In this document: piece by piece, positions 17,342-28,678 of the stretch
Layout of the letters: every line of letters begins with the position of its first letter
Numbering within the stretch: the stretch's first letter is position 1
From: Hahella sp. HN01
GTDB taxonomy: Bacteria; Pseudomonadota; Gammaproteobacteria; Pseudomonadales; Oleiphilaceae
Assembly (NCBI RefSeq): GCF_018986435.1
Contig: NZ_JAHMIN010000014.1
Coordinates: 25,142-60,269 of the forward strand
Length of the DNA: 35,128 bases
Direction: 5' to 3'
Position numbers and translations under genes: made by a program
The notes under the pieces: generated by a model
Databases searched by the model: none
The model's input: only the letters and a program-made list of their open reading frames with translations
Told to the model about the DNA's origin: nothing

Positions 17342-18007
<666 letters not shown>

Positions 18008-18022
18008 TTAAGTAATCCGGAC

Positions 18023-18082
18023 AGTTAACAAATCAAGTTAACCAACGAATTCCAGTTAACCAACACGCTCTAGTTAATCAAC
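18023..18082. repeat. Four direct repeats AGTTAACCAAC between gmk and the LysR gene
   Basis: Copies start at 18023 (AGTTAACAAAT, degenerate), 18036 (AGTTAACCAAC), 18054 (AGTTAACCAAC) and 18072 (AGTTAATCAAC), with 13, 18 and 18 bases between starts. Two copies are identical over 11 bases and each core contains the palindrome GTTAAC. They end 115 bases before the LysR start codon and begin 55 bases before the gmk start. Arrays like this usually bind a regulator cooperatively; LysR autoregulation or control of gmk are both possible. Confidence 0.6.
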
Positions 18083-18196
18083 AATAGTACCAGAGTTGTG
18101 ATGGGTTGTAGCGGACCTTTGCATTCAGAGGCCGCTCCGTGCAATCCTGCAACAGGCGATAAACGCCCATGCATACAACCCTGATTCGTAGAAGTT

Positions 18197-19156
18197 ATGG
18201 CAACACGTTTCGGTTTCGACCTCCGCGCTCTGAGTATTTTCGCCCACGTCGCCAAGACCGGGAATATGAGCCACTCCGCTGAGCAGCTGGGAATGACGCA
18301 AAGTTCGATCTCCCAGGCCTTGTCCAAGCTGGAGGAATCGCTGCAGACCCGGCTGTTCGATCGCACGGTCCGTCCCATGGAGCTGACCAGCGCCGGGCGC
18401 TTCCTGTACGACCGCAGCACCGCCCTGTTGCAGGAAGCGGAGCAGACCAGTCAGGCCATTCTGCAATCGGATTTCGCGCAACTGCGCCTCATAAAGATCG
18501 CGTTAACCGACTCCATCGTCACCTCGGTGGGACGATCGCTGCTGGATGCGGTGAAAAAACGCGCCCATGACTGGTCGATCAGCACAGGGCTATCGCATCT
18601 GCACGGCCATTCCCTGCTATCGCGCAACACCGATATTATTATTTCTGATGACGCCTTAGAGGATTACGCTGATCTGTCCCGTTACCGCATCCTGCGGGAA
18701 CCGTTCATTCTGGCCCTTCCCAACGACTACAATGGCCCCGCCGACGACCTCAACAAACTGGCGGCGGAGTTGGACTTTGTCCGTTACGGCGCTCACTCCC
18801 TCATCGCTCGGGGTATCGAGCGGCATTTGCGCGCGGTGCGGGTGGAGGCTCCAGACAGACTGCAACTGGATAACTCCTACGCCATTGTCTCCGCCGTGTC
18901 GGCGGGCATGGGCTGGACGATCACCACGCCTCTGTGTTTATTCCAAAGCGGCATCAAGCAGCATCACGTACAAATCCGCCGCTTGCCCGGCGAACAGCTG
19001 TTCCGCTCGATTACTCTGACTGCCCGCAAGGGAGAGCTGGGGGACCTGCCCCGGGAAGTCGCCCAGGACTGTATCGCTATATTGAAGCAGGATTTCCTGT
19101 CGTTAATGGCGACGGAACACCCCTGGATGATGGAATATCTGACTTTAGGGGATTAA
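18197..19156 (+). CDS. LysR-family transcriptional regulator
   Basis: 319-residue regulator with an N-terminal winged helix-turn-helix: FDLRALSIFAHVAKTGNMS, then the recognition part MTQSSISQALSKLEESL (about 34-50), then TSAGRFLYDRSTALL. The effector domain follows from about 95. The ligand is unknown. It lies at the edge of the amino-alcohol/ethanolamine cluster, convergent with the amidotransferase gene rather than divergent from the operon promoter, so a role in controlling the cluster is an inference from position. The ribosome site is weak (GAAG about four bases before the ATG). Confidence 0.85.
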   Translation: MATRFGFDLRALSIFAHVAKTGNMSHSAEQLGMTQSSISQALSKLEESLQTRLFDRTVRPMELTSAGRFLYDRSTALLQEAEQTSQAILQSDFAQLRLIKIALTDSIVTSVGRSLLDAVKKRAHDWSISTGLSHLHGHSLLSRNTDIIISDDALEDYADLSRYRILREPFILALPNDYNGPADDLNKLAAELDFVRYGAHSLIARGIERHLRAVRVEAPDRLQLDNSYAIVSAVSAGMGWTITTPLCLFQSGIKQHHVQIRRLPGEQLFRSITLTARKGELGDLPREVAQDCIAILKQDFLSLMATEHPWMMEYLTLGD

Positions 19157-19219
19157 AAAACGGCCGCGTCTGGCGTCGCCCCATGGGACGCTAGCGCAGC
19201 CAAAGAGGGTTGAGGGGGA

Positions 19220-19244
19220 ACGCGCAGAGCTCGACTCTGCGTGT
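19220..19244. terminator. Hairpin between convergent LysR and amidotransferase genes
   Basis: CGCAGAG (19223-19229), a five-base loop, CTCTGCG (19235-19241), extended to ten pairs with one G-T pair. It lies in the only gap between two convergent genes. No T run, so termination is inferred from position. It is followed by a tandem pair TGTCCGATACA (19244-19254 and 19258-19268). Confidence 0.35.
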
Positions 19245-19314
19245 GTCCGATACAATATGTCCGATACAGTGCACCGATATAAACAGTGCGCCCGATAAAA
19301 AGAGCAGAGAGGGC

Positions 19315-20031
19315 TTAACGGGTCAGCCGTCCTCCTGCGAAAAAGTTGATGATCCACTGCATCATCAAACGATCATCCACCGGCGCCGATAGAGACGTCT
19401 TGCCTTCGCGAATGCGCGGCGCTGGAATGCGATCCGTCCGTTTGTCCATCAAGGCGCTGGAGTATGCCTTGCTGAATTCAGGATGCCCCTGCACCGTCAT
19501 CAGATCAGAGCCGTACTGCAACAGGTAGAAGGGACAGAAGGTACTGCTCGCCAGCACTTCCGCGCCTTCCGGCAACTGCGTGATCTGATCTTGATGGCTG
19601 ACCACCAGGTCCAGGGAAGGCTGATAAGGCTCCATCCAGTTTTTGCGCACGCCAATCTGATTGAAGGACATGCCCACGCCCCAGCCGCGATTGGACTTCT
19701 CCACCTGGCCTCCCAGCGCTTTGGCCAATAATTGATGGCCAAAGCAGATGCCCACAAACTTTTTCCCCGCCGTAGCGACCGCCAGCACAAAACTCTCCAG
19801 CTTTTCGATCCACTGCGCGCCGTCATTCACGCCATGGCGACTGCCGGTGGTGATGTAGCCGTCGCAGGCGTCGACGGAGTCCGGCAGTTCGCCGTCCATC
19901 GCCCGATAGGTGACGAAAGTCCATTGCGGCGCCAGCTCTCCCAACGCCGCTTCAAACATCGCCGGATAATTCCCGAATTCCGGCTGTAATTCCTCCATAA
20001 CGTCGTCACACTGCAAAATGCCAATTCTCAT
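19315..20031 (-). CDS. Class I glutamine amidotransferase-like hydrolase (candidate gamma-glutamyl-amide hydrolase)
   Basis: 238-residue class I glutamine amidotransferase domain without a synthetase partner. The catalytic triad is complete: nucleophile C96 in GICFGHQLLAKALGG, H183 and E185 in GHPEF. Free-standing proteins of this type act in amine catabolism as the last step, removing glutamate from a gamma-glutamyl amino acid (PauD in Pseudomonas polyamine catabolism). Here it would release glycine or a similar amino acid. I use ATG 20031, with GGGAG upstream; the 63 residues added by the longer frame read into the adjacent alcohol dehydrogenase gene and look like shadow sequence. It follows that gene after 16 bases. 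Confidence 0.82.
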   Translation of the reverse strand: MRIGILQCDDVMEELQPEFGNYPAMFEAALGELAPQWTFVTYRAMDGELPDSVDACDGYITTGSRHGVNDGAQWIEKLESFVLAVATAGKKFVGICFGHQLLAKALGGQVEKSNRGWGVGMSFNQIGVRKNWMEPYQPSLDLVVSHQDQITQLPEGAEVLASSTFCPFYLLQYGSDLMTVQGHPEFSKAYSSALMDKRTDRIPAPRIREGKTSLSAPVDDRLMMQWIINFFAGGRLTR

Positions 20032-20047
20032 CCGCCTCTCCCTGCCT

Positions 20048-21211
20048 TCAAAGACGTCCGTGTACTGCATTTCTGAAGAGTTCGGCGTACTGGCCGGCAT
20101 CGAATGCAACCGGGTTGCCGCCGGCGGAGGGGTCTTCCACCGCCATGGCGCCGACTCGCTCCGCATCACTGTCATCAATGCCGATCGCTGACAAAGCATG
20201 TGGAATACCCAGGCTTTCACGCAGCGCCAGCACCCAGTTCAGGAAGCCGTCGAACCCTTGCTCCGACAAGTCCAGATAACGCACCAGACGAGTAATGCGC
20301 TCTTCAATCGCCTCGCGGTTCGCCTTGAGCACGTATGGCATGAGAATCGCGTTGAGCAGGCCATGATGCGCGTTGTACAAAGCGCCCAGCGGATGCGCCA
20401 GGGCGTGCATGCCGCCAAGGCCTTTCTGGAACGCTGTAGCGCCCATGCTGGAGGCGACCAGCATCTGCGTGCGCGCTTCGATATCAGCGCCGTCCGCGAC
20501 AGCGCGGGGCAGATAGTCTTTCACCAGACGGATGCCTTCCACCGCAATGCCTTCCGCCAGGGGGTGATAAAAAGGCGAACACAAGGCTTCCAGATTATGG
20601 GAAAGCGCGTCCATCCCCGTCGCAGCCGTGATGGGCGGCGGCAGGCCGACGGTTAACTCTGGGTCCAGAATCACCAGCGCTGGCAGCATACGCGGATGGA
20701 AGATAATCTTTTTGACGTGCTTGGCGGCGTCCGTGATCACCGAGGCCCGCCCGACTTCCGAACCTGTTCCCGCCGTCGTGGGCACGGCGACCACTGGGGC
20801 CATGCCAGCTTCGTTGACACGCGTCCAGTTGTCGCCGACATCTTCAAAATCCCATAACGGACGATCCTGTCCAACCATCAGCGCCACCGCTTTGGCGGCG
20901 TCCAGCGCAGAACCGCCGCCAAAGGCGATGACGCCATCATGGCCGCCAGCGCGATAGGCAGCGACACCCGCTTCCACATTTTCCCCCGTGGGATTGCCTT
21001 GAATGTCCGCAAATAGCCCGCATTGCAGCCCGGCGTCACGGCAGAGAGCGACGGTGTCCTGCACCATCGGCAAGGATTTCAGACCTGGGTCGGTTATCAG
21101 CAGAGGCGACCGCATGCCGAGATTACGACAGAGTTCCGGCAGTTCCCGGATACGTCCGGCGCCGGTGCGGATGGCGGTCGGATAATTCCAATTGGCTTGT
21201 AGTGCGCTCAT
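20048..21211 (-). CDS. Iron-containing (group III) alcohol dehydrogenase
   Basis: NAD(P)-dependent alcohol dehydrogenase of the FucO/AdhB group. The 387 residues show the nucleotide site FGGGSALDAAKAVA (about 97-110), VPTTAGTGSEVGRASV (143-158), and the metal ligands D201 and H205 (TGMDALSHNLEAL), H269 (GGMHALAHPLGALYNAHHG) and H283, at the spacing of FucO. In this cluster it would oxidise the hydroxyl of a gamma-glutamyl amino alcohol to the aldehyde. Its presence instead of an FAD amine oxidase is what points to an amino alcohol rather than a polyamine as substrate. Second-last gene of the leftward operon. Confidence 0.9.
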   Translation of the reverse strand: MSALQANWNYPTAIRTGAGRIRELPELCRNLGMRSPLLITDPGLKSLPMVQDTVALCRDAGLQCGLFADIQGNPTGENVEAGVAAYRAGGHDGVIAFGGGSALDAAKAVALMVGQDRPLWDFEDVGDNWTRVNEAGMAPVVAVPTTAGTGSEVGRASVITDAAKHVKKIIFHPRMLPALVILDPELTVGLPPPITAATGMDALSHNLEALCSPFYHPLAEGIAVEGIRLVKDYLPRAVADGADIEARTQMLVASSMGATAFQKGLGGMHALAHPLGALYNAHHGLLNAILMPYVLKANREAIEERITRLVRYLDLSEQGFDGFLNWVLALRESLGIPHALSAIGIDDSDAERVGAMAVEDPSAGGNPVAFDAGQYAELFRNAVHGRL

Positions 21212-21270
21212 GTACAGTCTCTTTAATACGCTCGTTAAAGTTTTTGTTTCGCCATTGTCTATGAGTGGCG

Positions 21271-22659
21271 TTACAGCATCTTGATATGGAAAGACTTGGG
21301 CCGGGTCAGGGATTCATAGCCCAGCTTGGACAAAGTGCAGCCCCGCCCGGAGTTCTTCACGCCGGTCCAGGCCAACGCAGGGTCCAGATAATCGCAGCGG
21401 TTGATAAAAAAAGTGCCGGTCTCAACCTGCTCGCCCAGCGCCACGCCTGCATCCAGATCCCGCGTAAAAATAGACGCGGTCAGGCCGAATTCGCTGTCGT
21501 TCATTAGCGCCACGGCTTCCTCATCGGACGCCACTTTCTGGATGCCGACAACCGGACCGAAGGATTCTTCGGTCATTACCCGCATTCCGTGATCAACATT
21601 GGTCAGCACCTGTGGAGCCAGATAAGGCGTTCCCTCTTTATCCATCTCAAAGTCCGCGGGATTGATATGGGCGACGGCCCCCTGCTCCACGGCTTCGCGC
21701 ACCTGTCCCCGCACGAATTCCGCCGCAGAAGCCCGCACCAGCGGCCCCAAGGTAGTGTTGGGGTCATCGGAGCGCCCCAAACGATAACTTCTGACCAGGG
21801 CGACGGCCTTCTCCACAAAAGCGTCGTAAACGGATTCATGCACATAGATACGCTCAATGCCGCAGCAGGACTGCCCCGAGTTGAAGAAAGCGCCATCAAT
21901 GGTGGTTTCCACAGCGTGATCAATATCCGCGTCCGCACGTACATAGGCGGGGTCTTTGCCGCCCAGTTCCAGACCTACGCCGATAAAACGGCCTGCGGCG
22001 GCGCGCTCGACCATGGCTCCGCCTGGGACGGAGCCGGTAAACGCGACGTAGTGAATGTCCGGCGAGCCGATCAGCGCTTCCGTATCCGCATGATTCAAAT
22101 GCAGGTATTGGAATACGCCGTCAGGCAAGCCTGCTTCACGGAAAGCTTCGTCAATGCGCTCCGCGCACAACGGCGTTTGCGCGGAATGCTTGAGCAGCAC
22201 GGCGTTGCCGGCCAGGATCGCCGGCACAATAGCGTTGACCGCCGTCAAATAAGGGTAGTTCCAGGGCGCAATGACAAAGGCCACGCCCACGGGCTCACGT
22301 TTGATATAGCGGCGAAAGCCCGGCTTCTCATCCAACTCTATCGGCGCCAGCGCTTCTTCCGCGACATCGATCATAAAACGGGCGCGCTCTTCAAATCCGC
22401 CCACCTCTCCCGCCGCGTAGCGAATGGGCCGCCCCATTTGCCAACACAACTCTGTCGCGATCTCCTCGCGCTTGGCGACAAAGGCGTCCACCATCTTGCG
22501 ACAGATATCCCGCCGCTGCGCTAACGTGGCGCCCTTCCACTCGCGCTGGGCTTGCGCCGCTTTAGCCGTGGCGGCGGCGATGGCCGCTTGATCAGCGTAG
22601 GGACGCTCAACATAGAGAGATCCGTCCACAGGGGACCAAGTCTTCTGCATAGTGCTCAT
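21271..22659 (-). CDS. NAD(P)-dependent aldehyde dehydrogenase
   Basis: 462-residue member of the aldehyde dehydrogenase superfamily, oxidising an aldehyde to an acid. Visible are the coenzyme and active-site motifs APWNYPYLTAVNAIVPAI (131-148), FTGSVPGG (207-214), catalytic Glu E231 in LELGGKDPAYV, nucleophile C265 in NSGQSCCGIERIYV, and the C-terminal EESFGPVVGI. In the cluster it would convert the gamma-glutamyl aldehyde from the alcohol dehydrogenase to the gamma-glutamyl amino acid, for example gamma-glutamylglycine. It lies between the ligase and alcohol dehydrogenase genes with 60- and 64-base gaps. Confidence 0.92.
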   Translation of the reverse strand: MSTMQKTWSPVDGSLYVERPYADQAAIAAATAKAAQAQREWKGATLAQRRDICRKMVDAFVAKREEIATELCWQMGRPIRYAAGEVGGFEERARFMIDVAEEALAPIELDEKPGFRRYIKREPVGVAFVIAPWNYPYLTAVNAIVPAILAGNAVLLKHSAQTPLCAERIDEAFREAGLPDGVFQYLHLNHADTEALIGSPDIHYVAFTGSVPGGAMVERAAAGRFIGVGLELGGKDPAYVRADADIDHAVETTIDGAFFNSGQSCCGIERIYVHESVYDAFVEKAVALVRSYRLGRSDDPNTTLGPLVRASAAEFVRGQVREAVEQGAVAHINPADFEMDKEGTPYLAPQVLTNVDHGMRVMTEESFGPVVGIQKVASDEEAVALMNDSEFGLTASIFTRDLDAGVALGEQVETGTFFINRCDYLDPALAWTGVKNSGRGCTLSKLGYESLTRPKSFHIKML

Positions 22660-22723
22660 CTTCGATTCTCTTACCTTTACTTAAAGGATAGTCATGGGAC
22701 TGAAGGTCATTCTGATCGTCGCG

Positions 22724-24103
22724 CTAGATAATCTCGAAATAGCGCTCCAGCTCCCAATCCGTGATATGGCGACGGAATTCGCGGCCTTCCCAATCACGAG
22801 TGGCGGCGTAATGTTCAACAAACTCATTACCAAACAGCTCCCGCGCCGCTTCCGAGCGACGCAAAGCCGCCGCGGCGTCCACCAACGTGGACGGCAACGC
22901 CAGCTGCTTGGGATGCTCCTGATCGTAGGCGTTACCAGACACCATCTCCTCCGGCTCCAGTTCGTGTTCAATACCGTAAAGACCCGAGCCGAGAGACGCC
23001 GCCAGAGCGATATAGGGATTGGCGTCGGCGGAGCCCAGTCGATATTCGACCCGCTGCGACTTGTCCGATCCGGGAATGACCCGCAGCGCGGTGGTGCGGT
23101 TTTCGCAGCCCCAGGTCGCATCGGTCGGAGCCCAGAAGCCCGGCACCAAGCGGGAATAGGCGTTCACGGTTTGCGCCATCATCGCCAGCATTTCCGGCAT
23201 CAGCTTTTGCTGACCGGCGATAAAGTGACGCTGCATCTTGCTCATGTTCATGGGCTGACCGGCTTCATAGAAGGCCGACTTGCCGCTTTCTTTATGGCGC
23301 AACGACATATGGATGTGCCCGGATTGGCCGGGATAGTCGTTGGACCACTTGGCCATGAACGTGGCCATCATGTTCTTGCGCTGCGCCCATACTTTGGTGA
23401 AGGTCTTGAATAAAGCCGCCTTATCCGCCGCTGCGCAGGCCGAATCCACCGTCAATGCCGCTTCCAGTACGCCAGGTCCGGTTTCGGTGTGCAGTCCTTC
23501 CAGAGGGAAGTCCATTTTTTCGCACAGGTCCAACAGCTCGTGATAAAGCTCCGCGTGCACGGAGTTACGCAGCATGGAATAGCCAAAGAAGCCCGGCGTG
23601 ATCGGCTCCAGGTTGCGATATCCCTTGGCGCGGGCGGAATGCGGCGTTTCGTTGAACATGAAGAACTCATATTCAAAGGCGGCGTAGGCGTCCAGCCCCA
23701 TGTCTTCCGCACGACGCAGTACCCGCGACAACACATTACGCGGACAGATACGCGCAGCGGGTCCATCAAAATCACACAAAAACAGCAGCATGCCCGGCTC
23801 AAAGGGGATGTCGCGGCAGCTCTCGGGCAGAATTTTCACCGGAGCGTCCGGGTAGCCTGTATGCCAGCCGGTATATTTAACGCCGACATTTTCATAAAGC
23901 TGGTCTTGTGAGTCCCAGCCCAACACCACGTCACAGAAGGCGAAGCCGCTTTCCAGTGAGGAAAAAAACTTCTCCTTACTCATGTACTTGCCGCGCATAA
24001 CGCCATCGTTATCAAACAACCCGACCTTCACATGGGTCAGATTGCGCTCTTCCACAATCCGTTTGGCGTCGGCGATAGTTTTTACGTCTCTTGTCTTTAT
24101 CAT
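22724..24103 (-). CDS. Glutamine synthetase-fold gamma-glutamylamine ligase (PuuA/GlnA4-like)
   Basis: 459 residues. Joins glutamate to an amine with ATP, giving a gamma-glutamylamide. Glutamine synthetase landmarks are present: AFEYEFFMF for the metal-binding Glu, TGPGVLEAAL, SGHIHMSL, NAYSRLVPGF, ENRTTALRVIPG and RVEYRLGSADANPYIALAA. The pattern matches the catabolic PuuA/PauA/GlnA4 group rather than housekeeping GlnA, which carries an adenylylation loop I do not see here. Streptomyces GlnA4 acts on ethanolamine. The start is ATG 24103 with AAGGCGG upstream; the longer frame adds 26 residues without a ribosome site. First enzyme of the operon after the permease. Confidence 0.9.
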   Translation of the reverse strand: MIKTRDVKTIADAKRIVEERNLTHVKVGLFDNDGVMRGKYMSKEKFFSSLESGFAFCDVVLGWDSQDQLYENVGVKYTGWHTGYPDAPVKILPESCRDIPFEPGMLLFLCDFDGPAARICPRNVLSRVLRRAEDMGLDAYAAFEYEFFMFNETPHSARAKGYRNLEPITPGFFGYSMLRNSVHAELYHELLDLCEKMDFPLEGLHTETGPGVLEAALTVDSACAAADKAALFKTFTKVWAQRKNMMATFMAKWSNDYPGQSGHIHMSLRHKESGKSAFYEAGQPMNMSKMQRHFIAGQQKLMPEMLAMMAQTVNAYSRLVPGFWAPTDATWGCENRTTALRVIPGSDKSQRVEYRLGSADANPYIALAASLGSGLYGIEHELEPEEMVSGNAYDQEHPKQLALPSTLVDAAAALRRSEAARELFGNEFVEHYAATRDWEGREFRRHITDWELERYFEII

Positions 24104-24195
24104 TTCTAATCCGCCTTGTTGTGATTCTTGTTCAGTCCTGTTGCAGATAATGATCCTGGAGCCGGCGCGCCGGCCCCGCAATCCCTTTAAGCCAA

Positions 24196-25674
24196 TTAAC
24201 TCAATTCAGCCTCGGCCTTGGCGATGGCCTCAAACTCTTCCTCAGGGGCTTTCGCCACCAGGTGATGTCGACTATAGAAGGCGAAATACGCCACCATCAC
24301 CGCATAGAACACGGCTGACCACATCGCGGCCTCTTGGCTGACCAGGAACGTGCTGATGAACGCGGCGACAGATAGAAGCAGCGCGATCCCGGTCGTCAAT
24401 ATGCCCCCTGGCGTACGATAAGGACGGTGCATATTGGGCTCTTTAACTCGCAAAATGATGTGCGACAGCATCATCATGGCGTAAGAGATCGTGGCGCCAA
24501 ACACCGCCATGGTGATCATCAAGTCTCCTTCTCCGGTCAATGACAGCAGAAACCCGATCACGCCCGGCACGACCAGCGCCATTGTCGGCACTTTGCGATT
24601 GCCGGTTAAGGACAGCCAGCGCGGCAGGTAACCTGCGCGGGACAAGGCGAACACCTGACGGGAGTACGCGAAGATAATGGAGAAGAAGCTGGCGATCAGA
24701 CCCGCCAGACCCACCAGATTCACAAAGGTGGCCATCGCTGAACTTTCGCCGTATGCATGCTGCAGAGCGCCCACTAACGGCGCGCTGTGGTCTTTCATCA
24801 ACTCAGCGCTGGAACCGCCCGGAGCGAGGAATAGCACCAATCCGCCGAAAATCAGCAGAATCACCATGGCGGTGATAATGCCTTTAGGCATGTCCTGGGC
24901 CGGGTTTTTGGTTTCTTCCGCGGCTAAAGGCACCCCTTCCACCGCCAGGAACAGCCACATGGCGAAAGGAATCGCCGCCCATATCCCAAAGTAGCCCTGC
25001 GGCAGGAAAGCGCTTGCGCCCACGGCGGATTCGTTAACGGCGATATCCGTCAGGTTGGCCAGTTCAAACTCAGGCAGCATCCCCAGGATAAACACCAGCA
25101 GCGCCGCCGCCGCAATGGCGGTGATGACCAGCATGATCTTCAACGCTTCGCCGGCGCCCCACAGGTGAATGCCCACAAAAATGATATAGAAAGCGGCGTA
25201 GACCAAGGGGCCGTTCAGACCGAACATCTCCCCCACATAGCCGCCAATAAAAATGGCGATGGCCGCAGGCGCGATAGCGTATTCGAGCAGAATGGCTGTG
25301 CCGGTCAGAAAGCCTCCAAGCGGGCCCATGGCGCGGCGCGCGAAGCCATAACCGCCGCCGGCGGTGGGAATAGCGGAAGAGAGCTCCGCCAGGCCGAACA
25401 CCATGAAGGTGTACATCGCGGCCATCAGAATCGTGGCGATAAACATGCCGCCGAAACCGCCCTGCTCCAGGCCAAAGTTCCAGCCGGCGAAATCACCGGA
25501 GATAACATAAGAGACGCCAAGACTGGCCAGCAGAATCCATCCCGCCGCTCCCTTTTTTAATTGACGTTTTTCCAGATAATCATTGGATACATTCTCATAA
25601 TCCACCGTTCCGACATGAGCAACTGAAGGCGCAATGCTGTTGTCAGACGCTGTGGCAGCGGACGTTTCGGCCAT
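24196..25674 (-). CDS. Ethanolamine-type permease of the APC superfamily
   Basis: Inner-membrane symporter, 492 residues and about 12 membrane segments. It is close to the ethanolamine permease (Eat) family as I recall it from Pseudomonas: VSYVISGDFAGWNFGL, AELSSAIPTAGGGYGFARRA, GTAILLEYAIAPAAIAIFIG, VEGVPLAAEETKNP, IASFFSIIFAYSRQVFALSR and the C-terminal FAFYSRHHLVA. In Pseudomonas the same permease type accompanies eutBC, whereas here it stands upstream of a glutamylation pathway. That makes ethanolamine the leading substrate. First gene of the leftward five-gene operon. Specificity is inferred from recalled similarity only. Confidence 0.85.
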   Translation of the reverse strand: MAETSAATASDNSIAPSVAHVGTVDYENVSNDYLEKRQLKKGAAGWILLASLGVSYVISGDFAGWNFGLEQGGFGGMFIATILMAAMYTFMVFGLAELSSAIPTAGGGYGFARRAMGPLGGFLTGTAILLEYAIAPAAIAIFIGGYVGEMFGLNGPLVYAAFYIIFVGIHLWGAGEALKIMLVITAIAAAALLVFILGMLPEFELANLTDIAVNESAVGASAFLPQGYFGIWAAIPFAMWLFLAVEGVPLAAEETKNPAQDMPKGIITAMVILLIFGGLVLFLAPGGSSAELMKDHSAPLVGALQHAYGESSAMATFVNLVGLAGLIASFFSIIFAYSRQVFALSRAGYLPRWLSLTGNRKVPTMALVVPGVIGFLLSLTGEGDLMITMAVFGATISYAMMMLSHIILRVKEPNMHRPYRTPGGILTTGIALLLSVAAFISTFLVSQEAAMWSAVFYAVMVAYFAFYSRHHLVAKAPEEEFEAIAKAEAELS

Positions 25675-25759
25675 GGGTTTATCCCCCTGTTTATTGTTGT
25701 TTACTAGGACGACGCCCTATCTCCACAGAGATGAGCGCGCAGGCTTCAAACACCAACCG

Positions 25760-25788
25760 ATTCTAGGAGGCCCCAAAAAACCCAGCAA
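25760..25788 (-). promoter_or_regulatory. Possible sigma-70 promoter of the ethanolamine-type operon
   Basis: On the minus strand TTGCTG, a 17-base spacer and TAGAAT. Transcription would begin near 25753, about 80 bases before the permease start at 25674. The -10 matches five of six positions and the -35 three of six. Confidence 0.4.
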
Positions 25789-25940
25789 ATACAATCACTT
25801 TCGTCGAAAAGCTAGTATTAGGGAAACTTATAGTGCGCTGAAATGACGCGCCGGGCGCGTTATCCGCATGCCCTGAAAGGGGAATTGAAATAAACTGCCG
25901 GGAGAAGATTTACAGCAAAACGGGGCCAAAAGGAGGCATT

Positions 25941-26414
25941 GTGCTGGAAAAGATAAACGCCTGGATCGACGACACCAACCGTAAGAACTACGATCGCCGC
26001 CACGCCTGCACGGAGTTCGCCCAGGCATTCGCCGGCTTTTACTCATCGGAGTTCCTGGCCAGCGCCTATTTCGTGGTGACTGACGATATTCCCAGACCTG
26101 ACTTTCCAGAACTGCGCCAAATGGGATTCGGCGAATTTATCGATATGCCCGTCAACGGCACGACCTATAAAGACACTTACTACATAAGGTCTTCAGCAGT
26201 TTCCGAGTTGCGAGTGCACTTTCATGAGCTGGTTCACGTAGTGCAGTGGCGTGAGCTGGGCGCGTTGAACTTTATCCAGCGTTATATGAAGGAAATTCTG
26301 ACCTGCGGTTATGCAAACGCCCCTTTGGAGATCATGGCCTATGATCTGGATAAGCGCTACGGCGCGAAAGTCGACGCCTTTGATATTCCTGAATATGTCA
26401 TCAGGAACCTGTAG
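25941..26414 (+). CDS. HExxH-containing protein of unknown family
   Basis: 157 residues without signal peptide or membrane segment. A zincin-type motif HFHELVHVVQW puts HELVH at residues 95-99, and a possible third ligand E130 lies in PLEIMAYDL about 30 residues later, as in gluzincins. This suggests a small cytosolic metal-dependent peptidase or a metal-binding relative. I do not recognise the family or a substrate. Start is GTG 25941, with AGGAGG four bases before it, a strong ribosome site at slightly short spacing. Convergent with the ZapE-type ATPase gene, 12 bases away; divergent from the permease operon. Confidence 0.75.
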   Translation: MLEKINAWIDDTNRKNYDRRHACTEFAQAFAGFYSSEFLASAYFVVTDDIPRPDFPELRQMGFGEFIDMPVNGTTYKDTYYIRSSAVSELRVHFHELVHVVQWRELGALNFIQRYMKEILTCGYANAPLEIMAYDLDKRYGAKVDAFDIPEYVIRNL

Positions 26415-26426
26415 CCCGACATCAAG

Positions 26427-27614
26427 TCAGGCCAGTTCCGACGGCTCGCGCAGATGCTGATACTCCAAAGACCCCATTTCCATCAATCGGCTGCGCGCCC
26501 GCTCAAATTCGAAAGTCAGCGCGCCGCGAGTATAGAGTTCCGCCAGAGGCGCTAAGGCGGTCATATAAAGCCGCACTTTGCGCTCGTACAACTCGTCCAC
26601 CAGCGCAATAAATCGCCGCGCCGCGTCATCACTTCGCGACAACACCACGGCCCTTTCCCCGGTTGCGCCGGAACCGACGCTGCCGTCTTCCGTTCCCCGC
26701 GCCTTGATCCTCTCGTACGCCTCGCCGCTTAGGTGCGGGATATTGAGAAGAATAATCAGATCGAAGCGTTCAGCGAGATCAACGTAATCCAGATGACTGC
26801 GCGGTCCTTCGCAAAGAGCCGCAAAATCGAAAGCAATCCTCCGTCCGACGCGAGCCACATATGTGATATCGCGGGACAGCACCTTCAGCGTACACGACTT
26901 GTCTCTTTCCGCCACTAACTCAAAACGCTGCAGCAAGTCGCCCTCGACATCAGACAACTCAGACTGGTTACGCTCGACAAAATAAATAGCTTCCGGCTGC
27001 AATGCGCGTTCACGGTGATCCAGTCCGCCATCCATATGCAAAGTTTGCGTATGCGCCTGAATCGCAGCGATAGCAGGCAGAAAGCGAGAACGCTGCAAGC
27101 CATCCCAATACAGTCTTTCCGGCGGCGTATTACTCGTCGCCACCAGCGTCACATCGAACTCAAACAGCGACTGCAACAGCCCGCCCAGCAGCATGGCGTC
27201 GCCAATATCCGAGACGAAAAACTCATCAAAGCAAAGTACGGAATAGCGACGGCTGAAGTCTCTGGCGATCCGCCGCAACGGCTCAGGGGTTCCACTCAAC
27301 GCCTGCAACTGCCGATGCACGGACGCCATAAAATGATGAAAATGCTGGCGCAAAACCTGTTCTGGATTGAGGCTGGCGACAAAAAGATCCATTAAAAACG
27401 TCTTGCCCCGCCCCACTTTGCCCCACAGATACAACCCCGACACATACTCCGACCGCCCCACCAACCACTTGGGACGATCGCCAGCGCCAGCCAACCGCTC
27501 ATACAAATCCTGCAACGCATTCAAAGCCATCGCCTGCGACGGATCAGCCTGAATCTCACCTGCGTTGAGCAAAGAATCGTAGCGTTGTTTGGGGCTTATG
27601 GGAGTTGTGTACAT
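26427..27614 (-). CDS. zapE: ZapE/AFG1 family P-loop ATPase
   Basis: 395-residue ATPase related to E. coli ZapE (cell division under stress) and yeast Afg1. N-terminal YDSLLNAGEIQADPSQAMAL is the family opening. Walker A is LWGKVGRGKTFLMDLF (about 65-80), Walker B is LCFDEFFVSDIGDAMLL, followed by the sensor region TLVATSNTPPERLYWDGLQR, and EGPRSHLDYVDLAERFD in the C-terminal half. Single gene, convergent with the HExxH gene. Whether it is the main ZapE of this genome or a second copy cannot be told from the window. Confidence 0.87.
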   Translation of the reverse strand: MYTTPISPKQRYDSLLNAGEIQADPSQAMALNALQDLYERLAGAGDRPKWLVGRSEYVSGLYLWGKVGRGKTFLMDLFVASLNPEQVLRQHFHHFMASVHRQLQALSGTPEPLRRIARDFSRRYSVLCFDEFFVSDIGDAMLLGGLLQSLFEFDVTLVATSNTPPERLYWDGLQRSRFLPAIAAIQAHTQTLHMDGGLDHRERALQPEAIYFVERNQSELSDVEGDLLQRFELVAERDKSCTLKVLSRDITYVARVGRRIAFDFAALCEGPRSHLDYVDLAERFDLIILLNIPHLSGEAYERIKARGTEDGSVGSGATGERAVVLSRSDDAARRFIALVDELYERKVRLYMTALAPLAELYTRGALTFEFERARSRLMEMGSLEYQHLREPSELA

Positions 27615-27685: not shown

Positions 27686-28579
27686 CTATCTCGCCTTTTC
27701 CGCTTTGGATATCTCTTGTTCTTCCGCCGACTTCAGATCCTTGCCTGTCTCATCCTTCCACTCGACAAGTCCATTGGCGCTTCGCCCCATGATGACAGCC
27801 GCCGCAGCCGAAGGACTACTAAAGAGATAGTCTGTGTTGAAAAGTAACTTTTCGCCCGATATGCCTAATACCCCGGCTTCCATAAGCTCTTCCCTAAGAG
27901 CGTTGAAGCCTTTAGGAAAGGACGGCACAGTACTTGTGGCGGCTTCAGAGCCAGCGAACACAACAAATCCATCATTCGTGCGCTGCCCCCGACCACTAGC
28001 TCCTCTGGCGCCTTTCACATAAAAAATATCTGGTGATTGTGCCGATGCGTCATTCACTTTCACTAAAGGCTCAAACACCCTAAATCCCATCGTGTTGACG
28101 AGGATTTTTATATACTCAATAAACTCTTCCATCTCCGCTTGGTCAGACTCTGAAATGGCGCTTCGAGTGGGCGTATTGCCATTTTGAATATCAAACCGGC
28201 CAGCTGTTTTGGCAATATCGCAGAGTCTGGATTCAAGGTACTTGATGTGCGCCTTATTTAAATTCTCGTCTTTGCTGGTGAATACCACCGACTCATTCCA
28301 GAACTCTTTGTCTGACACATGCTTTACGAGACGCTCATAGGCATTCTCAGTTTCTCCCACATAGGCTTTGGGTTTAGCGGTGGGAGAGTCTGCGCGACCG
28401 AAAAGTATATACACAGCGGTTCCTTTCAGGTCGCTGCGGTCAGCACAATCTTTTACTTTGGCTCTCGGGATACGATAGGCCTTACCCGTCCAGTTGGATA
28501 TTTCACACACCATCCTGCCTTCCGGATCAGCGTCCATCAAAAACAGCTTTATCGTCTTTCCATACTTCTTCGCGTACAT
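27686..28579 (-). CDS. GIY-YIG nuclease family protein with C-terminal DUF4357 domain
   Basis: 297 residues. The GIY-YIG-type core begins with TAVYILFGRA (about 54-63) and KAYVGETENAYERLVKH (71-87), giving a variant YIL/YVG pair. N108 and E116 in LNKAHIKYLESRL fit the usual metal-binding Glu helix. A DUF4357 module at the C-terminus shows ANGLVEWKDETGKDL. Such proteins are accessory in many genomes, often near restriction or mobile regions; the substrate is unknown. I prefer ATG 28579 (AAGGA upstream) over the ORF start at 28612. Composition is lower in GC than the neighbours (two 60-base lines at 28261-28380 are 43 and 50 percent, against 65 percent for a line of recG), which suggests later arrival. 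Confidence 0.8.
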   Translation of the reverse strand: MYAKKYGKTIKLFLMDADPEGRMVCEISNWTGKAYRIPRAKVKDCADRSDLKGTAVYILFGRADSPTAKPKAYVGETENAYERLVKHVSDKEFWNESVVFTSKDENLNKAHIKYLESRLCDIAKTAGRFDIQNGNTPTRSAISESDQAEMEEFIEYIKILVNTMGFRVFEPLVKVNDASAQSPDIFYVKGARGASGRGQRTNDGFVVFAGSEAATSTVPSFPKGFNALREELMEAGVLGISGEKLLFNTDYLFSSPSAAAAVIMGRSANGLVEWKDETGKDLKSAEEQEISKAEKAR

Positions 28580-28678
28580 GGCTTTCCTTAATCCTGTGCC
28601 TCTACAACCCACAGAAATGCAGCAATCCTAACTGAAAGGCGGCTCTTCGCCATAGGAATTTTCTACTCTATTCGGGCA

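Follow-up and report, generated by a model that had tools for sequence, protein, structure and literature searches.

The stretch of DNA analysed here (35,128 nucleotides at full length, hereafter the window) comes from the gammaproteobacterium Hahella sp. HN01 (assembly GCF_018986435.1, contig NZ_JAHMIN010000014.1, positions 25,142 to 60,269), and carries a five-gene operon whose make-up points to uptake of ethanolamine and its breakdown after capping with glutamate (gamma-glutamylation). A first-pass annotation, made from the letters alone, had listed five leftward genes for a permease, a gamma-glutamylamine ligase, an aldehyde dehydrogenase (ALDH), an iron-containing alcohol dehydrogenase (Fe-ADH) and a class I amidotransferase, and all five were present, intact, on the minus strand and in the families named, between 19315 and 25674 (Table 1). 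Its claim that an alcohol dehydrogenase takes the place of the FAD oxidase of Puu-type pathways also agrees with the operon, which includes the Fe-ADH and, among its genes, no FAD amine oxidase of the PuuB/PauB type. Although the amidotransferase frame opens at 20220, within the Fe-ADH gene, translation probably begins at the ATG at 20031, which follows a purine-rich stretch and lies 16 bases past the Fe-ADH stop codon. For the ligase, the ATG at 24103 is the likely start rather than the TTG at 24181.

Table 1. Features of the operon and its surroundings (coordinates refer to the window).
Feature	Coordinates	Strand	Basis or remark
Operon of five genes, permease-ligase-ALDH-Fe-ADH-amidotransferase	19315-25674	-	all intact open frames
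APC-family ethanolamine permease (Eat type), first operon gene	24196-25674	-	TIGR00908
Glutamine-synthetase-like ligase, proposed gamma-glutamyl amino-alcohol ligase, 459 aa	22724-24103	-	PF00120
ALDH, proposed gamma-glutamylacetaldehyde dehydrogenase	21271-22659	-	PF00171
Fe-ADH, proposed gamma-glutamylethanolamide dehydrogenase	20048-21211	-	PF00465 + PF25137
Class I amidotransferase, proposed gamma-glutamylglycine hydrolase, 238 aa, last operon gene	19315-20031	-	PF00117
LysR-type regulator, convergent with the operon end	18197-19156	+	PF00126/PF03466
Intergenic region upstream of the permease, presumed promoter region	25675-25940	-	read from sequence

In the pathway we propose, the permease would import ethanolamine and the ligase, with ATP, would couple it to the gamma-carboxyl group of glutamate, giving gamma-glutamylethanolamide. 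The Fe-ADH would oxidise the hydroxyl group of this compound to an aldehyde, the ALDH would convert the aldehyde to gamma-glutamylglycine, and the amidotransferase-fold hydrolase would then release glycine and glutamate, regenerating the cap.

A route of this kind has been published. The part of PMC10132767 that concerns it attributes a TRAP-type ethanolamine gamma-glutamylation pathway (EtoX, ETAGA, GAADDH, GETADH and GGAH) to Chromohalobacter salexigens, Agrobacterium tumefaciens and Phaeobacter sp. MED193. An excerpt of PMC9397018 tabulates the C. salexigens route as PF00120, PF00465, PF00171 and PF05013, with the steps given as proposals, and a passage of PMC6529630 terms the same pathway an in silico prediction. 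The first-pass statement that no worked-out version was known from gammaproteobacteria does not hold, since these excerpts describe one for the gammaproteobacterium C. salexigens (PMC9397018), with comparable steps in Phaeobacter. Plasmid clusters of Ruegeria, Marinovum and Paracoccus (L059, L060 and L064 among our numbered loci) have the published ethanolamine layout, with an RpiR-type regulator, a hydrolase of the N-formylglutamate-amidohydrolase type, a TRAP transporter, the ligase, the ALDH and the Fe-ADH.

The permease matched TIGR00908 ('ethanolamine permease') with 550.6 bits against a curated cut-off of 381.75, which bears out the likeness to the ethanolamine Eat family noted at first pass. 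It was the only protein above this cut-off in the host genome, and it scored far better on the ethanolamine model than on any polyamine model. The TRAP transporter that goes with EtoX is absent from the window operon.

To place the operon among its relatives, named genomes were scanned with a 23-row ligase alignment, which gave at least 589 pattern matches and at least 584 relatives of the ligase. Unless otherwise stated, neighbourhood counts refer to the best 80 of these, that is, to the nearest part of the family, and to neighbours up to 6 kb from the ligase; at least 4 kb upstream was available at 66 of the 80 loci, and 52 had full flanks (at least 4 kb upstream and at least 5.5 kb downstream). 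The genera represented include Pseudomonas, Halomonas, Photobacterium, Microbulbifer and Legionella, among others.

An EtoX-type TRAP binding protein lies on the same strand as the ligase in 15 of the 80 relatives (and also at L042), with 67-72% identity to Ruegeria EtoX (63% for the L042 copy). At 10 of these 15 loci the TRAP genes are immediate neighbours of the ligase; at L113, L097, L114, L117 and L109 a gap of 1.2-3.9 kb lies between. Compared with solved structures (E 1e-30), Ruegeria EtoX matched 4uab alone (E 1e-191), which was also the sole structure matched by the EtoX copy of the Halopseudomonas locus L116 (E 2e-149), where the 'GITEDYTVGWANVTNYFLTNN' stretch is identical. According to an excerpt of PMC12410723, 4uab is Csal_0678, solved with bound ethanolamine. 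When the transporters were counted over the 66 loci, 20 had an Eat-type permease only, 13 EtoX only, one both and 32 neither; L111, scored as having neither, has the permease in pieces. On the ligase tree these assignments require at least four permease/TRAP switches, three of them forced by well-supported branches. The strongest argument for ethanolamine as the substrate is that its two unrelated uptake systems replace one another next to the same set of enzymes. Two loci (L044:6404-9317 and L047:52-2965) have a permease (42% identity) and the ligase, with neither dehydrogenase in the fetched stretch.

The dehydrogenases point in the same direction. The ALDH and Fe-ADH of the window are 54-57% identical to those of the ethanolamine-type plasmid clusters L059, L060, L061 and L064, and the ALDHs of several other plasmid ligase clusters are likewise 51-59% identical. 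Identity is 31% between the ALDH and Escherichia coli PuuC and 31-34% between the Fe-ADH and E. coli FucO, YiaY and EutG. Within the host, the other well-aligned ALDHs reach at most 33%, save for a paralogue on contig 61 (47%), and the two other well-aligned Fe-ADHs 30-34%. In the ALDH and Fe-ADH trees the enzymes of the EtoX clusters nest among window-type sequences, several inner supports being under 90. Both dehydrogenase genes are near the ligase in 46 of the 52 full-flank loci, and the amidotransferase is there as well in 30, so that the gene set is not a chance assembly; Fe-ADH is near the ligase in 50 of the 52, in four of them without ALDH.

The ligase belongs to PF00120 and matched four NCBIfam models, all under their curated cut-offs, for which reason we assign it neither to glutamine synthetase nor to PuuA. 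At a flap position where the host GlnA has, by our alignment, the glutamate matching Glu327, whose role at the ammonium site is described in a passage of PMC6529630, the window ligase has Trp324. This residue is invariant across the 23 aligned ligase rows, and the same position holds Trp in IpuC, Phe in the EtoX-cluster ligases and Tyr in PuuA. The replacement of an ammonium-site glutamate by tryptophan would fit a substrate that is an amine other than ammonia. In the ligase trees, window-type and EtoX-cluster ligases stand far apart, and their grouping as one clade was rejected (p-AU 0.0017) in a test that left L054, L055, IpuC, L066, PuuA and GlnA outside the tested group and in a tree with long branches. 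Structure 5dm3 (in our reading Csal_0679, from C. salexigens) falls together with the Ruegeria EtoX-cluster ligase, and the published annotation of Csal0679 is that of a putative glutamine synthetase.

The host has three PF00120 proteins, namely GlnA, the window ligase and a paralogue on contig 61. At its locus (L056:14066-17998) this paralogue, which shares 63% identity and the clade with the window ligase, is accompanied by the ALDH that is 47% identical to that of the window; the gene of a PEP-CTERM protein lies between the two, and the contig ends close by.

For the last step, the solved structure nearest by sequence to the amidotransferase is gamma-glutamyl peptidase 1 of Arabidopsis (E 4e-24). 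A Foldseek search with the AlphaFold2 model (mean pLDDT 96.5) also returned this enzyme (PDB 9k7i-9k7l; TM 0.91, E 3e-24, 26% identity), the next protein following at 8e-16, and the Cys-His-Glu catalytic triad, which the two enzymes share, is conserved in all 56 of the 56 rows aligned, the window included. Given this likeness and the kept triad, gamma-glutamyl cleavage is better founded than a role as glutamine-dependent synthase, and we predict a gamma-glutamyl-cleaving hydrolase. Gamma-glutamyl peptidase 1 is a plant enzyme whose natural substrates, glutathione conjugates, are unlike those proposed here. The amidotransferase gene is missing from 23 loci. In the 16 of their genomes that were searched a relative is encoded elsewhere, with 36-44% identity in 15 and 31% in the sixteenth, a result made ambiguous by the breadth of the family. 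A PF05013-type hydrolase (Ruegeria query) had no match near the 80 ligase loci, many of which have short flanks, and no substitute hydrolase was recognised among the few neighbours scanned beside Pseudomonas-type loci without the amidotransferase.

The first-pass annotation had advised checking the genome for the absence of eutBC, and for eutB this was borne out: no match was found in the host genome (7.13 Mb in 134 contigs, listed as 100% complete), with a positive E. coli control. To estimate how widespread the ligase is, an even draw of 369 gammaproteobacterial genomes was searched (threshold E 1e-100), and a window-type ligase was found in 22, the host included; ALDH and Fe-ADH lay in the fetched stretch (up to 18.5 kb, some contigs being short) in 14 of the 21 others. 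The ligase of the Ruegeria EtoX cluster, used as query, detected 17 genomes of this draw, with no overlap with the 22, and we dropped the notion that the window type is the main gammaproteobacterial form. Outside this group, the Desulfopila locus L076:7281-14690, from another phylum, has the full window-type enzyme set together with an EtoX TRAP transporter, which suggests horizontal transfer.

The permease family, the EtoX-type TRAP transporters of relatives, the kinship of the dehydrogenases, the hydrolase resembling a gamma-glutamyl peptidase and the lack of eutB all support the route from ethanolamine to glycine and glutamate put forward at first pass. Several observations weigh against it. 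The ligase, at 30-32% identity, is no nearer to the ligases of the TRAP-type ethanolamine clusters than to PuuA (33%). In farther ligases of its clade the Fe-ADH is replaced by a GMC oxidoreductase (L029) or by an aminotransferase with polyamine-type ABC genes (L030, L031), and since such distant members keep other partner genes, membership of the clade alone is no proof of ethanolamine. No dehydrogenase of either kind was seen with the ligase at L044, L047, L050 and L055, nor at two of the 52 full-flank loci (L108 and L146). At L067, L069, L070, L071, L072, L082, L092, L093, L105 and L111 Fe-ADH comes after the ligase and no ALDH is seen there; of the nine of these genomes that were searched, which include that of L069, the nearest relative of the ligase, eight have no ALDH more than 37% identical to that of the window. 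In the genome of L111 a copy with 56% identity is encoded elsewhere, and the same search returned 73% and 74% in two control genomes. At several ALDH-less loci the contig stops shortly after Fe-ADH; either general ALDHs substitute there, or the assemblies are incomplete, or the pathway differs. Furthermore, 32 of the 66 loci have neither ethanolamine transporter. Finally, exclusion between the ligase and eutB was discarded as evidence, since the absence of overlap between the 21 eutB genomes of the draw and the 22 ligase genomes (1.25 shared genomes expected) arises by chance with P = 0.26.

On balance, it is very probable that some small amino alcohol is handled by gamma-glutamylation, and we put at roughly 0.8 the probability that the operon serves the uptake and B12-independent breakdown of ethanolamine by this route, with ethanolamine as the main substrate. 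The best surviving alternative, which we nonetheless consider unlikely, is the same chemistry acting on one or more other small amino alcohols (L-alaninol, serinol, 3-aminopropanol or 1-amino-2-propanol) and yielding the matching amino acid. Of the named ligases compared, the one with the highest identity is an annotated IpuC (39.7%), whose pathway, in the published excerpt, passes through gamma-glutamyl-L-alaninol. Binding sites for ethanolamine can also accept its analogues, since serinol and L-alaninol are reported in an abstract to be bound by an unrelated ethanolamine receptor. However, the permease model is one for ethanolamine, the close relative of the TRAP protein was solved with ethanolamine, and the dehydrogenases group with their counterparts from clusters interpreted as ethanolamine pathways. 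A little less likely still is a role in detoxification or salvage rather than growth, in which the enzymes would clear ethanolamine released by intracellular phospholipid turnover. The many relatives without a nearby transporter would suit such a role, but the window operon starts with a permease, whose expression would import the substrate, and both end products (glycine and glutamate) serve as nutrients. A PuuA/PauA-type pathway for diamines or polyamines, with the alcohol dehydrogenase acting elsewhere, is very improbable: PuuA is in the ligase family and some distant ligases stand beside spermidine-type ABC transporters, but the operon has no FAD amine oxidase, Fe-ADH accompanies the ligase almost throughout the full-flank loci, and the permease fits the ethanolamine model far better than the polyamine ones.

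Read as an ethanolamine pathway, the operon is a variant of the published one and not a new pathway. It shares with the TRAP-type pathway the ligase-ALDH-Fe-ADH order (as in the plasmid copies of that layout), closely related dehydrogenases and the proposed chemistry, and differs from it in its ligase, which belongs to another clade, in its hydrolase (PF00117 instead of PF05013) and in having a permease, with LysR nearby, where the other has TRAP and RpiR. The relation to Streptomyces coelicolor GlnA4 drawn at first pass also stands, and in the relevant passages of PMC6529630 this ligase is characterised and acts on ethanolamine, the later steps being proposals. By these descriptions the GlnA4 cluster likewise combines a glutamine-synthetase-like ligase, an ALDH and a glutamine amidotransferase, and differs in that the Figure 2 legend names a short-chain dehydrogenase where the window has Fe-ADH; the text ascribes removal of the cap to a protein of the formylglutamate-amidohydrolase family (PMC6529630), and an excerpted review table places SCO1611 against PF00465 (PMC9397018). 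The ligase of an actinobacterial cluster of similar make-up (L063) falls in the clade of the EtoX-cluster ligases.

In the Ipu isopropylamine pathway, as far as the excerpt of PMC6776027 describes it, removal of the cap is likewise postulated for an amidotransferase and IpuC has Trp at the same flap position, whereas the alcohol is made by a cytochrome P450 and the cap comes off before oxidation. The Puu pathway of E. coli (PuuA, PuuB, PuuC and PuuD) has in common with the window the glutamate cap, an ALDH and the removal of the cap, and differs in using the oxidase PuuB at the step of the Fe-ADH and in its distant ligase and ALDH. A gamma-glutamyl route in Acinetobacter baumannii was considered as prior art and rejected, as the available part of PMC9426561 describes eutBC and the paper contains no word that begins with 'glutamyl'. 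Searches of an open-access library found no treatment of the window-type gene set, judged by titles and abstract openings.

As for regulation, the LysR protein, whose gene the first-pass entry on the operon leaves unmentioned, is a possible regulator of the operon, and a LysR relative (at least 40% identity) is near the ligase at 16 of the 66 loci. A riboswitch, for example one for glycine, within or ahead of the operon was rejected, since an Rfam scan of 17900-26500 gave no match. Elsewhere in the window, a 308-aa frame (27686-28612) begins, by eye, with a sequence like a GIY-YIG nuclease domain.

Further loci came to light in the search. Two alphaproteobacterial plasmids (L030 and L031) carry ligases 51-52% identical to that of the window, with an aminotransferase, a P1 peptidase, a spermidine-type ABC transporter and a dimethylformamidase-like protein, and would represent another, putative gamma-glutamyl pathway. 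On a Rhizobium plasmid (L029) and a Paraburkholderia plasmid (L062), glutamine-synthetase-like ligases (56% identical in L029, in the other clade in L062) stand near pyridoxal-phosphate enzymes, a desaturase and a LysE exporter, gene sets that presumably recall rhizobitoxine-type biosynthesis. On the Aminobacter plasmid pAA03 (L061), the ethanolamine-type cluster adjoins bhcRABC, genes of the beta-hydroxyaspartate cycle, a position that would be consistent with glycine as the product.

The combination of close dehydrogenases with distant ligases and hydrolases of different Pfam families leads us to infer a mosaic, in which a shared middle chemistry would be paired with two ligases and two hydrolases. 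It seems somewhat more probable than the contrary that ethanolamine gamma-glutamylation was assembled at least twice round one dehydrogenase pair, with ligases from two distant clades, hydrolases from two Pfam families and uptake swapped repeatedly; the window type would then be a second form that has hitherto gone unrecognised and that, judging by the ligase counts given above, gammaproteobacteria carry about as often as the published one. What appears to be new is the clade of the ligase, the family of the hydrolase and how widely the type occurs in gammaproteobacteria.

Ethanolamine is one of the major head groups of phospholipids, and whether it can serve as food is often decided from eutBC. 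If the reading proposed here is correct, many gammaproteobacteria carry a B12-independent ethanolamine route that eut-based surveys miss and that would be under-called by searches based on the published ligase or hydrolase. The family would also offer a clean case of pathway mosaicism, with the middle shared, the ends replaced and the transporter swapped.

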